Shown here piece after piece: positions 391 through 7,592 of a stretch of 40,054 nt of DNA. Each line of letters begins with the position of its first letter. Within the stretch, counting starts at the first letter, position 1. The notes beneath the pieces are model-generated. The model was not told the origin of the DNA and did no database searches. It saw nothing but the letters and a program-made list of their open reading frames with translations. The stretch lies in the NCBI GenBank assembly GCA_003221045.1, contig QHUC01000003.1:1-40054 (forward strand), in the 5' to 3' direction. The DNA is from Gemmatimonadota bacterium (GTDB lineage: Bacteria; Gemmatimonadota; Gemmatimonadetes; Gemmatimonadales; GWC2-71-9). A program made the translations under genes and the position numbers.

Positions 391-567
391 GACGCCCCGA
401 TCATCCCTCTCGTTCTGCGCAGACCTGCTTCGTCACTCCGTTGGATCAACGCAACCTCGTGCGCACGCCACAGCGGCGGAGGCAAAATCGCTGCGCGCGC
501 ATCGCCGCGAGGCTGCAACATTTTTTGTATGTCTCGACACCTCAGCAGGTTCTCCGCTCCATTTTGA

Positions 568-582
568 TGGCATCGGCTTTGC
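568..582 (+). promoter_or_regulatory. Putative sigma-54 (RpoN) -24/-12 promoter
   Basis: TGGCAT-CGGCT-TTGC, with GG-N10-GC spacing, 62 nt upstream of the ATG at 644. Confidence 0.6.
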
Positions 583-643
583 GTTCCCGGCCCTCTGGTC
601 AGCACCGGCTGCAATCGTCAACAGCGAGGAGGGCAGAACGCAC

Positions 644-1351
644 ATGATGCGAGAACACAGAAGCTTGATCGTCTGGCCGAGCCTCATTGCGGCCGGACTG
701 CTGGCCGCGTCCTGTACCGACCAGCCGAAAGTCAGCATGGCGCCGAACCGCCCAAACTTCTGGCTCACGCCTCCCCCGGCAGTGTGCACCGGAGGAAAGT
801 GGACGGGCGGTGGGCGTATCGACCCCGCGTACCCCGACCCCACGGCGGGAAGCAACTATGACGGAGCGGATGAAGATCTGGCCCACGAGGAGGAGTACTT
901 CGCCTACAAGCTTCCTAACATGACCGGGAAAGTGACTTTCGGGTTCAACATCTTCTTGGCGGTGAATAGTGAAACCCCCAGTCGCTGCTACGTGCAGAAG
1001 GGCGAGATCGAGGTCAATCATCACCCGGCGAAGACCAGTTGGCACGTGTCGATCCACGACGGGACCGATGCCCAAGGTAACACCGTCTATGCGTCGGTAT
1101 TCGCCGATGCCAGTGGAAGGGGCTACTGTCTCGTGGTGGGGATCCCCGACAACTACATGTGGGCGCGTGTCAACGGAAACAAGGGTTATGAACTGACGCA
1201 GTTCGAGGTCTGCGACAACGATCGTGGCCAGCCGCAAAACAGCCGACATGACGCGATGCGCTGGCGGGCCGCGGGTGATGTTAGTCACGATCCAGGCGAC
1301 ACTCACCTCATCTACTTGACGGGTGGCAACATCGTGGAGCACGGGTCGTGA
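644..1351 (+). CDS. Secreted lipoprotein, possibly related to the post-COAP-1 domain
   Basis: Signal peptide with lipobox (LLAASC); AGGAGGG-type RBS upstream; CTGGKWTGGGRI...KVTFGFNIF...GEIEV...VSI pattern resembles domains found with choice-of-anchor P proteins. Confidence 0.7.
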   Translation: MMREHRSLIVWPSLIAAGLLAASCTDQPKVSMAPNRPNFWLTPPPAVCTGGKWTGGGRIDPAYPDPTAGSNYDGADEDLAHEEEYFAYKLPNMTGKVTFGFNIFLAVNSETPSRCYVQKGEIEVNHHPAKTSWHVSIHDGTDAQGNTVYASVFADASGRGYCLVVGIPDNYMWARVNGNKGYELTQFEVCDNDRGQPQNSRHDAMRWRAAGDVSHDPGDTHLIYLTGGNIVEHGS

Positions 1352-1407: not shown

Positions 1408-2124
1408 ATGAACGGCAAGAGCATGCATTGGGTGAACCGCCTCGCGGCCCTCGGGCTCGTGGTAGGGCTCGTGGCTGGGCTCGCGGCGGTGGGTAGCGCC
1501 CAGTCGGTGGGTGGCCAGGCGTACAGCACGTACGTCAACACGCCGCTCGGTTCCAGTGCTCAGTCTCCACTGGCGGTGCTGCCGGCGGTCTCGGGCACCG
1601 ACGGCGCCGAGGCGGACGCCGAAGGAAGTGCGCTGAACGTTGCGGGTGCCCTGTCGTCCGATTTCCTCAACAGCATCACGTCGGGCGAAATCGGCGCCGC
1701 GGAGGCGGGCGCACAGAGCACCGCGAGCGCGGCGAGCGTGAACATCCTGAACGGGCTGATCACCGCAGATGAGGTGGTCGCGAACGTCATGAGCAGCGCC
1801 GGCCAAACCGGTGCGTTCAGCAACGCCGACGGCTCGACGCTCACGAACCTCACGGTAGCCGGCCAGTCCCTGTCCGGCGATCAGCCGGTGGCTCCAAACA
1901 CCAACGTCAGCCTACCCGGCGTGGGGTACGTCGTGCTGAACGAGCAGATCCCCTCGGGCGACGGCGTGTCGAGCAGCGGCCTGACGGTGAACATGATCCA
2001 CGTGTACCTGCAGAATCTGGTCGGTGGCATTCTGAATCCGCTCACCGGTCAGATCATCGGCGGGACGTTGCAGACGACCGGCGAGATCATCGTCGGCTCG
2101 GCGACGAGCAGCGTGGCGAGCTGA
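1408..2124 (+). CDS. Choice-of-anchor P-like secreted protein
   Basis: RBS AAGGAAGGAG; signal peptide MNGKSMHWVNRLAALGLVVGLVAGLAAVGSAQ; repeats of LTNLTVAGQ.., PNTNVSLPGVGYVVLNEQ.., GLTVNMIHVYL.., GEIIVGSATSSV typical of the family. Confidence 0.7.
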   Translation: MNGKSMHWVNRLAALGLVVGLVAGLAAVGSAQSVGGQAYSTYVNTPLGSSAQSPLAVLPAVSGTDGAEADAEGSALNVAGALSSDFLNSITSGEIGAAEAGAQSTASAASVNILNGLITADEVVANVMSSAGQTGAFSNADGSTLTNLTVAGQSLSGDQPVAPNTNVSLPGVGYVVLNEQIPSGDGVSSSGLTVNMIHVYLQNLVGGILNPLTGQIIGGTLQTTGEIIVGSATSSVAS

Positions 2125-2210: not shown

Positions 2211-2330
2211 GTGCAAAGCGTAACACGCTGACGCATCAAACTGTATCACCAACGCCATATCCGCCGTTGCTCCGCATTGTCAACTCGTTGCAGAATCGCT
2301 AGTTATCGCGCGACGCAGTAGGTAGCGACG

Positions 2331-2346
2331 TGGCACTAGCCTTGCT
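2331..2346 (+). promoter_or_regulatory. Sigma-54 (RpoN) -24/-12 promoter upstream of rsbR
   Basis: TGGCAC-TAGCC-TTGCT exactly matches consensus TGGCAC-N5-TTGC(A/T), GG-N10-GC spacing; 42 nt before the ATG at 2388. Confidence 0.8.
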
Positions 2347-2387
2347 GTTGCGCCGCAGCAACATTCAACACCCAAGGACTGCCCGCC

Positions 2388-3296
2388 ATGGCCGCCAAAG
2401 GGAAAGACCCGCAAGCGCCGCTGCCTGACTCCGTCGCGCAACCCGAGTCCACCGCCGCGCTGTTGCGGGAGCTGGTGGCCCTCCTGCGGCAAAACCGCAC
2501 CCAACTGCGTGAGGAATGGGCGCGGCGCATCACCCGGGCCCAGTTGCTCACGGCCATGACCGAAGAAGAAATCTTCGCGGAAGCCACCTCGGTGTACGAC
2601 AACTACGTCGAGGCGCTCGAGACCGGCACCTTCGAGGCCCTGCAAGCCTACGCCCGCAACCTGTCCGAGCGCATCATTCCGCGAGGCGTCGAGACGCACG
2701 AGGTGGTCGGGATCGTGTTGCTGCTGCGTGACGTGCTGGCCCGCTCGCTGTTCGGAAAGTACCACGAGGATTTCGACAAGCTCTACCGCATTCTCGACGC
2801 CTACGAGCCAGCGGCCAACCGGATCGCGAACACGGTGGCGGTCGGGTTCGTGCAGGAGCGCGAGCGTATCATCCGGCAGCAACAGGAAGCGATCCGGGAG
2901 CTGTCCACGCCGGTGCTCCAGGTGCGCGAGCGGCTCTTGATTCTGCCGATCATCGGCGTCATCGATCCCCAGCGGGCGCGCCAGCTGACCGAGCAGTTGT
3001 TGCGCGCGATTCGGACCAACCGTGCGAAGGTCGTCGTGATCGACATCACGGGCGTGGCGGCGATGGACTCGAACGTGGCGAACCACTTGGTGCAGACCGT
3101 CGAGGCATCCCGCCTGCTGGGCGCGACCGTGATCGTGACGGGCCTCTCGCCCGAGATCGCGCAGACCCTGGTGACGATCGGTGTCGATCTGAGCGAGATG
3201 GCAACGGTCGGCGATCTCCAGGGTGGTATCGAAGAGGCGGAGCGCCTGCTCGGCTACAAGGTGCTGCCGCTCGAAGAGGTGGCCCCAAAGGCGTGA
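2388..3296 (+). CDS. rsbR: RsbR-type stressosome scaffold (RsbRD-like N-terminal domain + STAS domain)
   Basis: N-terminal helical sensor region, then AIRELSTPVLQVRERLLILPIIGVID...VVVIDITGVAAMDSNVANHLVQTVEASRLLGATVIVTGLSPEIAQTLVTIGV, a canonical RsbR STAS domain. Confidence 0.85.
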   Translation: MAAKGKDPQAPLPDSVAQPESTAALLRELVALLRQNRTQLREEWARRITRAQLLTAMTEEEIFAEATSVYDNYVEALETGTFEALQAYARNLSERIIPRGVETHEVVGIVLLLRDVLARSLFGKYHEDFDKLYRILDAYEPAANRIANTVAVGFVQERERIIRQQQEAIRELSTPVLQVRERLLILPIIGVIDPQRARQLTEQLLRAIRTNRAKVVVIDITGVAAMDSNVANHLVQTVEASRLLGATVIVTGLSPEIAQTLVTIGVDLSEMATVGDLQGGIEEAERLLGYKVLPLEEVAPKA

Positions 3297-3327
3297 GCCG
3301 GTACCGTACTCCGTCGACGGAGGGCGC

Positions 3328-3720
3328 GTGGAAGTCCCGATCCTGAAGCAGGGCCACTACCTGATCGCGTCCATCCAGTCGGCGCTCACCGACGCCGATC
3401 TGTCGCAGCTGCGCGAGGCGTTGATCGAGCGGGTCGGGAAGTTCCGCGCCCGCGGCGTCATTGTCGACGTGACGGCGCTCGACGTGATGGACTCGTTCGC
3501 CGTCCGCACGCTGCGGGACATCGCCCACATGGCTCGCCTCCGCGGCGCGGAAACGGTGATCGTGGGCATTCAGCCCGAAGTGGCGTTCGCGATGGTGCAG
3601 CTCGGTCTCACGCTCAAGGGCGTGTCGACCGCGCTCGACCTCGAGGAAGGCCTCCTCTTCCTCGACCAGCAGGCGAAGCTCCGCATCGAGCGCGGGACGG
3701 GACGGATCGACCGTGGCTGA
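3328..3720 (+). CDS. rsbS: RsbS-type STAS-only stressosome antagonist
   Basis: GTG start; MEVPILKQGHYLIASIQ...GVIVDVTALDVMDSFAVRTLRDIAHMARLRGAETVIVGIQPEVAFAMVQLGL. The D-S-F motif carries the conserved phospho-acceptor serine. Confidence 0.85.
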   Translation: MEVPILKQGHYLIASIQSALTDADLSQLREALIERVGKFRARGVIVDVTALDVMDSFAVRTLRDIAHMARLRGAETVIVGIQPEVAFAMVQLGLTLKGVSTALDLEEGLLFLDQQAKLRIERGTGRIDRG

Positions 3721-4123
3721 CGAGCTGCGCATCGCGGTCACGGCCGACGTCGACGTGGTCACCGCCCGGCAGCGCGGGCGAGAGGTCGCGGCGCAGGCAG
3801 GTTTTTCGAGCGGCGATCAGACGGTCATCGCGGCGGCCATCTCCGAAGTCGCCCGCAACATTCTCAATTACGCGAAGCGCGGCGAAGTGCAGCTCAGTGT
3901 CGTGACCAACGGTGACCGCCAGGGCGTCATTATCGTGGCCCGTGATCAAGGGCCCGGGATTCCCGACGTCCAGCGCGCGCTCGAGGACGGCTATTCGACC
4001 TCGGGGGGCCTGGGCCTCGGTCTGCCGGGCGCCCGCCGCTTGATGGACGACTTCGACGTGACGTCGGCCGTCGGGAAGGGCACGACCGTGACAATGAAGA
4101 AATGGCGGCGCATGAATGCATGA
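3713..4123 (+). CDS. rsbT: RsbT-type switch kinase (GHKL serine/threonine kinase)
   Basis: N-box EVARNILNYAKRG, G1 DQGPGIPD, G2 GLGLGLPGARRLMDDF; overlaps the rsbS stop. Confidence 0.85.
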   Translation: MADELRIAVTADVDVVTARQRGREVAAQAGFSSGDQTVIAAAISEVARNILNYAKRGEVQLSVVTNGDRQGVIIVARDQGPGIPDVQRALEDGYSTSGGLGLGLPGARRLMDDFDVTSAVGKGTTVTMKKWRRMNA

Positions 4124-4753
4124 GGCGCCCGCCGATGCTGCCACTCTGTTGGATTGGGGCGTCGCGGCGGTCGCGCTCCCCGGAGAGGCGGAATCGGGCG
4201 ACCTCCACCTGGTCCGGTCGGTGGGGGGAGGCGTGCTGGTGGCGGTGGTGGACGGCCTGGGTCACGGCGCGGAGGCGGCGACGGCGGCGCGGTTGGCGAT
4301 CGCCGCGCTGGCGCGGCACGCGCACGAGTCCCCGCCGTCCCTGTTCGAGCGGACCCATCAGGCACTGAAGGGGACTCGGGGCGTCGTCATGAGCCTCGCG
4401 TTTTTCAAGCGCACCGACCCCTCTTTGACGTGGCTCGGCGTGGGCAACGTGGAGGGCCTCCTCGTACACGCCGTCGACGCGGCTCGCGCCGCCCGCGCGC
4501 GGAAGTCGCTCGTCACACGCGGCGGCATCGTCGGCTCGGAGCTTCCGCGCCTGCAAGCGGAGGTGTTACGCCTCACGGCCGGGGACACCCTCATCTTCGC
4601 CACCGACGGTATTCGGGAGGGTTTCGTAGACGGACTGCCGGCCGGTGCGACGCCGCAACAGCAGGCCGAGCATATTCTCGCTCGACATGGCAAGGGCACA
4701 GATGATGCGCTCGTCCTGGTGGCTCGGTATCGCGGCCAGAGCCGGACGGGCAG

Positions 4754-4757
<4 letters not shown>
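4116..4757 (+). CDS. rsbX: SpoIIE/RsbX-type PP2C serine phosphatase
   Basis: [34 protein letters not shown] motifs; overlaps rsbT; same order as the rsbR-S-T module. Confidence 0.75.
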
Positions 4758-6168
<1,411 letters not shown>

Positions 6169-6172
<4 letters not shown>

Positions 6173-7461
6173 CCGGCCCGCCGCCTGTCCGCGTCGAGAA
6201 AGCGCTCGCGCTGCTGCCGGAGCTCGAAGCGCTCGACCCGCTGCGGGCCCTGCTGGTCTCGATCGCGCGGCCGGATGCGCACGCGCTGTGGTCGAGCTCC
6301 GGTCCGTACCTCACCCTGGGGAAACGGGGCGTGCAGCCGGACGAGCTGCGACGGCGCATGCCTCAGGCCTTTCATCGCATCACGGGGCACCTGCAGGCAC
6401 TGTACCGGGAGTATGTGGACGCGCTCGAGTGTCAGCAGGCGGCGGACCCCGCGGGGGTGGTGGGGGCGCTGTTGCGCGGCGGACGCCTCGAGGAGCGGGT
6501 GGCCCGGTTCACACAGGCGCGCGCCTGGTACGCGGTCGCGCTCGCCGTCGCGGAGGCACTGCAAGACCGCCGGCCCGAGGTGGAGACGCTGCGTGCCATC
6601 GGCTACGTGTGCATGGCGCTCGGGCAATACGCCGAGGCTGCCCGGCACTTCCAGCGCTCACTGGCGCTGGCCGAGGCGGAGTTCGACCAGGGCGGAGCGA
6701 CCGGGGCATGCGAAGGCTTGGCGGACGCGGCGCTCGCCCAGGGCCAGTGGTCGGGCGCGCACGCGTGGTACAGCCGCGGGCTGCGTCTGGCTGAAGCCGC
6801 GGACGACGCCGTGCGCGCCGGACGACTGCAGTGCCAGCTCGGCGTCGTCGCGCGCCATCAGGGCGATCTTTCGGCCGCGGGCGAGTTTCTGCGCGAGGCC
6901 CGCGAGCGCCTCGAGTCCGCCGGCGTCGCGGACGAGATGGCGCGCGTGCTGAACGAGCAGGGACGGCTGGACGCCCAGCTCGGTCGTCACGACGCCGCGT
7001 CCGCGGCGTACCGGGAGGCGCTGGCGTGGGCGCAACGGACTCCCGGCGACGCGGGCGACGAGCTGTCGATCCGTCTGAACTTAGCGGAGCTCGATCTCGA
7101 CGCCGGACGCCTGGTGGAAGCCGAGGCGGAGCTGCGGCGCGCCGAGCAGGTGGCCATCGGCGGCGATCTCATGCTTCGGCTGGCGCAGGTCTATGTCCTG
7201 ATGGGCCGGTTGCGCGGCGCGCAGGAGGACGAGACGGGGTTCGTCTTCTTCGAACAGGCGATCGAGCTCGCGACGGCTCTGGACCGCTCCGCGGCGACGC
7301 GGGCGCACGTGTTCTTCGAGTACGGCCTGTTCCGCAATCGGCTCGGGCAGCGGGATGAGGCGCGCGCCTACCTCGAGCAGGCCCGCGAGCTATTCGCCTC
7401 GCTCGGGGAAACGGCCGAGCGCGAGCGGGCCGACGCGGAGCTGCGCGCGCTCACGGCCTAG
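6169..7461 (+). CDS. Tetratricopeptide repeat protein
   Basis: Multiple TPR-like units ([45 protein letters not shown]). GTG start overlaps the activator stop (GTGA). Confidence 0.7.
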
Positions 7462-7592
7462 ACGTTTCAGTTGTTCGTCAGGGGGTTCTTCCCGCGGCCG
7501 GTATCGGGCTTGGCCGCCCCTTTCTTTTTCTGCGCCTGCGACGGCGCGGCGGTCGTCCCGGTCTAATATACGACGGCGACCCCCTGCCGACG

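Follow-up and report, generated by a model that had tools for sequence, protein, structure and literature searches.

A probable sigma-54 promoter of an exported lipoprotein/choice-of-anchor P pair and its possible link to an adjoining stressosome module

The closest described precedent for the locus examined here is the PEP-CTERM/EpsH regulon with its PrsK-PrsR-PrsT proteins (PMC1569441). In this PrsR/PEP-CTERM regulon of Proteobacteria, the upstream motif lies on average 63 nt from the -24/-12 site (PMC1569441), and pepA of the PEP-CTERM system is RpoN-dependent (PMC9850573). A second relevant system is the minimal RsbRSTX stressosome of Vibrio vulnificus, the predicted output of which consists of two-component-type proteins (PMC9237108). 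The circuit proposed below bears on what stressosomes control outside the sigma-B bacteria; in the open-access literature that we searched, nothing relevant linked the stressosome to sigma-54 activators or to Gemmatimonadetes.

The promoter at 568-583 and the gene pair behind it

In the window, by which we mean the whole stretch of DNA analyzed (40,054 bases, from a soil Gemmatimonadetes genome), two genes for exported proteins follow a -24/-12 site on the same strand. The original prediction had claimed this site at 568-582 with GG-N10-GC spacing, 62 nt from the gene at 644, and both details were confirmed: letters 568-582, TGGCATCGGCTTTGC, carry GG at 569-570 and GC at 581-582 with ten bases between them, inside the pattern TGGCAY-N5-TTGC, and the ATG at 644, with AGGAGG ahead of it, lies 62 nt past the GC. 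A transcript from this promoter would be expected to start near 593. The features concerned are as follows.

568..583, + strand: predicted sigma-54 promoter, -24/-12, TGGCATCGGCTTTGCG (pattern match and conservation in relatives)
644..1351, + strand: lipoprotein with lipobox LAASC and a conserved TGGGRIDP...GKVTFGFN motif, of no known family
1408..2124, + strand: choice-of-anchor P family protein (NF040603, E 2e-41), second gene of the operon

The second gene, earlier described as choice-of-anchor P-like, is a true member of that family, scoring 142 bits against a cut-off of 27. The lipoprotein matched no Pfam or NCBIfam family; its AlphaFold model, all-beta, has a low mean pLDDT of 61, and a Foldseek search with this weak model returned nothing (best E 0.3). 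In 19 of 19 loci the choice-of-anchor P gene comes after an open frame that encodes a GGG(R/K)(I/V/L) motif, in most cases with FG after it, and judging from these sequences the pairing of the two kinds of protein looks general. On the 5' side, at 2-268, the contig opens within a gene that probably encodes a UDP-N-acetylglucosamine 2-epimerase (PF02350, below cut-off), of which just the end remains.

The strict pattern TGGCAYN5TTGC occurs exactly twice in the window, at 568 and 2331, and both sites are intergenic, on the + strand and correctly oriented; the expected number, taken as the mean over 200 sequences from a first-order (dinucleotide) model, is 0.095. The chance of a strict match in the 374-nt gap on the strand of the 568 site is ~ 4e-4. 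The genome encodes RpoN (PF04552, E 8e-57) and contains 11 strict sites in 2.81 Mb, as counted by pattern search, compared with seven for the reversed control pattern. The 568 site is thus among the best of the genome but tied with others. A weight matrix built from the sigma-54 consensus gave scores that serve only to rank sites. The composite of upstream half-dyad and promoter has a single match in the genome, the 568 site itself; extended to the whole order, this composite search gave many control matches outside the genus and is not used as evidence there. Thus, the earlier claim that only two sites are convincing holds within the 40-kb window but overstated their uniqueness in the genome: as a strict match the 568 site is not unique, yet its occurrence by chance is unlikely.

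Of the nine strict sites elsewhere in the genome, those on C10, C59 (3438) and C122 fall inside genes, while others lie upstream of genes on C97 and C219 and, at C59:5897, upstream of an exported JAB-domain protein (PF14464; L178:2204-2912). Similar JAB-type genes with a nearby strict site were seen in relatives (L111, L121, L136 and L139). The pilin genes of this genome have no strict site upstream. On C22, a pilin-like gene (L169:830-1190) stands just after where a second probable bEBP, with a Fis-type helix-turn-helix, ends, and the DNA between them is rich in GCAAC/TGCA. A first look yielded 22 bEBP gene candidates in the genome, which probably has further bEBP genes besides the one described below.

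One additional piece of evidence was provided by comparison with related genomes. At this locus, the closest named relatives are soil MAGs of Gemmatimonadetes. Ortholog identities are 77-92% for the choice-of-anchor P gene and 58-66% for the lipoprotein. A strict -24/-12 site stands just 5' of a lipoprotein-like gene in G000, G001, G002 (twice), G004 (twice), G006, G019, G028, G039, G049 and G071. Upstream DNA of 1.4 kb or more was available for 19 choice-of-anchor P loci; in 12 of them a strict site was present, at 654 to 840 nt on the 5' side (reversed control, 0/19). An alignment of 14 pair promoters shows no change in TGGCA or TTGC, against a spacer and flanks that vary. The site is kept also at pairs away from the stressosome genes (G001, contig 84; G004, contig 268), which indicates that its conservation is no by-product of linkage to that module. 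The proposal of a sigma-54 promoter for the pair is thereby strongly supported, by this conservation and by the presence of rpoN; on these comparisons the promoter at 568-583 is almost certainly real, and the pair is very probably switched on from it.

The stressosome module and a shared upstream dyad

Downstream of the pair lies a six-gene module, preceded by the second strict site of the window.

2331..2346, + strand: predicted sigma-54 promoter of the rsbR operon, TGGCACTAGCCTTGCT
2388..3296, + strand: RsbR-like stressosome protein (RsbRD_N, STAS)
3328..3720, + strand: RsbS-like STAS protein
3713..4123, + strand: RsbT-like ATPase/kinase (HATPase_c_2)
4116..4757, + strand: RsbX-like phosphatase (SpoIIE domain)
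4754..6172, + strand: sigma-54 activator (bEBP) with pseudo-receiver, AAA+ domain with GAFTGA, and Fis-type helix-turn-helix
6169..7461, + strand: TPR protein, last gene of the module

RsbR (N-terminal domain and STAS), RsbS, RsbT and RsbX are present in order, the RsbRD_N match being just under cut-off (23.7 of 24.3 bits), and the gene order from 2388 to 7461 is the same in relatives. No rsbU, rsbV, rsbW or sigB was seen in the cluster. A simple scan found no terminator-like site between 2124 and 2388. In G001, two complete stressosome/bEBP modules (L076 and L077) lie on separate contigs with an identical rsbR promoter. In L095 and L097, where the exported pair is absent, a strict site (7544-7559 and 6221-6236, respectively) precedes the rsbR site by ~ 284 nt, and just a short frame or a possible small RNA lies between the two sites.

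The bEBP at 4754 is of the NtrC type in having a sigma-54 interaction domain and a Fis-type helix-turn-helix, the latter nearly identical across 17 aligned sequences. Its N-terminal domain, residues 24-149, is predicted to have a receiver fold (mean pLDDT 73; PDB receivers matched at E 6e-7) but has neither the phospho-acceptor aspartate nor the acidic pair expected of an NtrC-type bEBP under phosphorylation control: strand 3 ends in WDVVLAVLG, and strand 1 reads VVPGEG (mostly VVAGEG in relatives). Since the phospho-acceptor is missing, control is probably exerted by protein contact and not by a histidine kinase. By analogy with the RsbT-RsbU contact in Bacillus (PMC12143880), the contact partner may be RsbT.

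These features raise a key question: is there a site from which such an activator could act on the two promoters? The following candidates were found.

503..520, + strand: candidate activator (UAS) dyad CGCCGC-GAGGCT-GCAACA, centered 56 nt upstream of the -24 T
439..456, + strand: possible second activator dyad cgttgg-ATCAAC-GCAACC, weak, centered at -120
2242..2259, + strand: dyad position upstream of rsbR (-80), weak in this genome and clear in relatives
2346..2363, + strand: perfect dyad TGTTGC-GCCGCA-GCAACA, just downstream of the rsbR promoter -12

The consensus GYTGC-N6-GCRAC lies ~ 56 nt upstream of pair promoters, and the same N6 dyad is found at rsbR promoters. Of the 14 pair promoters, 12 have it between -56 and -58; of 33 further sigma-54-like sites from the genus, one has it at -56. 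Similar second dyads occur near -120 or -150 in relatives. Mean dyad scores were 8.34 at pair promoters versus 5.12, none of 20,000 random draws being as high, and with strict matching the best upstream fit was at -56 in the pair set (z 5.4) and at -80 in the rsbR set (z 5.0); all these statistics are optimistic, as the dyad was noticed before scoring and the sequences are related. When arm spacings from 3 to 13 were compared, N6 was best in both promoter sets. On this sequence evidence a single activator common to pair and rsbR promoters is quite likely, and we think it probable that the 4754 bEBP would be that activator.

In other genera of the family, a sigma-54 site with a GCRAC half-site ~ 50 nt upstream stands 5' of pilA, and the conserved site with a GTTGC-N10-GCAAC-type dyad was seen before pilA in L150, L151, L152, L157, L159, L160 and L161. 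A PilR protein presumably acts at these pilA promoters. We dropped the idea of an upstream half-site reserved for the 4754 activator, since pilA in these genera is likewise preceded by it; the N6 arm spacing alone separates the pair and rsbR dyads from the N10 dyads of pilA.

The copy at 2346-2363 is the only perfect TGTTGC-N6-GCAACA dyad in this genome. This inverted repeat overlaps the point where rsbR operon transcripts would be expected to begin, and it is kept in 14 of 16 promoters from relatives, with arms that are conserved around a variable middle; an autoregulatory operator and a 5' hairpin are candidate readings of it.

The pair as a possible output of the stressosome

Another important question is whether the pair belongs to the outputs of the stressosome/bEBP module, as had been suggested. 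Neighborhood, co-occurrence and the common upstream dyad speak for this part of the original prediction, and the probable presence of other bEBP genes speaks against it. In genomes with the full module, all 11 TGGGRI-type pairs have the site, including pairs on other contigs. In G035, which has no bEBP ortholog at E 1e-90, two pairs lack a strict site; in G071, likewise with no ortholog at E 1e-90, the site is present and the dyad absent; and in G057, where the module is divergent, the pair is without a strict site. TGGGKL-type pairs are without a strict site even in genomes that have the module, and not every lipoprotein/choice-of-anchor P pair would therefore belong to the regulon.

The explanation that we favor as a whole joins the 568 promoter, the 503-520 dyad, the 4754 bEBP and the stressosome link, with a probability of roughly 0.7; sequence comparison supplies its promoter core and conservation, common dyad, gene neighborhood and receiver fold. 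According to this explanation, 568-583 would be the working sigma-54 promoter of a two-gene operon (644-2124), where RpoN-RNA polymerase would be held closed at -24/-12 until a bEBP acts. A bEBP bound ~ 56 nt upstream at the 503-520 dyad would open the promoter by ATP hydrolysis; the acting protein would most probably be that encoded at 4754-6172, from the RsbR-S-T-X module, and it would be controlled via protein contact, e.g. by RsbT released from the stressosome. With the N6 dyad also at the rsbR promoter, the module would regulate its own operon jointly with the exported outputs. The identity of the activator, the RsbT-bEBP contact and actual expression are the parts that we infer. For direct control of the 4754 bEBP by the stressosome, we put the chances at about even, and the same balance applies to the fuller proposal that the stressosome directly controls a sigma-54 activator via a receiver-like domain not open to the usual kind of phosphorylation and so switches the exported pairs and its own operon.

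Three other explanations have to be weighed against this one. That the 568 match is a chance short consensus in GC-rich intergenic DNA, with the pair transcribed from another promoter, is highly improbable: the seven control matches against 11 true ones imply that many strict matches do arise by chance, and several fall within genes, but the 568 site is kept at the same place in many relatives despite diverged flanks, and no sigma-70-type site was found in 240-2400 as an alternative. The promoter could instead be real and driven by another bEBP, e.g. a PilR-like two-component activator, the adjoining stressosome being incidental. We regard this as unlikely, even with the related half-site at about the same distance 5' of pilA in other genera of the family, the other bEBPs probably encoded in this genome and the pairs away from the module in G001 and G004, given that the arms are 10 apart in pilA promoters and 6 apart in pair and rsbR promoters, that pairs adjoin the module in several genomes and that the G035 pairs, in a genome with no close bEBP ortholog, are without the site.

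The dyad itself might be a repressor operator or, at rsbR, a 5' RNA hairpin, with sigma-54 regulation acting via sites not yet seen. The perfect rsbR copy, downstream of the -12, is placed where a repressor or a 5' hairpin would fit. However, the dyad keeps a constant distance upstream of the pair promoters, and in G028 a perfect copy stands 5' of rsbR, at -80; both placements would suit an enhancer. The conservation of the arms around a variable middle also counts against the operator or hairpin reading. We consider this alternative decidedly unlikely.

Comparison with known systems

If the favored explanation holds, the stressosome would have an output other than sigma-B or two-component proteins, and an output via a sigma-54 activator would be a new kind of stressosome output. 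The proposed circuit is concrete and testable, with a conserved promoter, a candidate activator site and target genes, and it would give choice-of-anchor P proteins and their lipoprotein partners a regulatory setting. Relative to pilA promoters, the pair promoters differ in arm spacing (N6 versus N10) and in target, which there is a pilin. Like that of V. vulnificus (PMC9237108), the present cluster has a four-gene rsbRSTX without rsbU, rsbV, rsbW and sigB, followed by a separate output module; unlike in V. vulnificus, this module consists of a bEBP and a TPR protein. With the PrsR regulon the locus shares a Fis-type bEBP, a TPR protein, an upstream motif ~ 60 nt from the -24/-12 site and a small number of exported target genes. 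In contrast to PrsR (TIGR02915), the 4754 bEBP remains under the family cut-off (354.8 of 502.6 bits) and has no phospho-acceptor; RsbR-S-T-X is found here and no PrsK-type kinase; and the targets are lipoprotein/choice-of-anchor P pairs, with no PEP-CTERM match. Judged by these sequence differences, the present circuit is not a member of the PrsR/PEP-CTERM regulon and would parallel it in another phylum with a different sensor.
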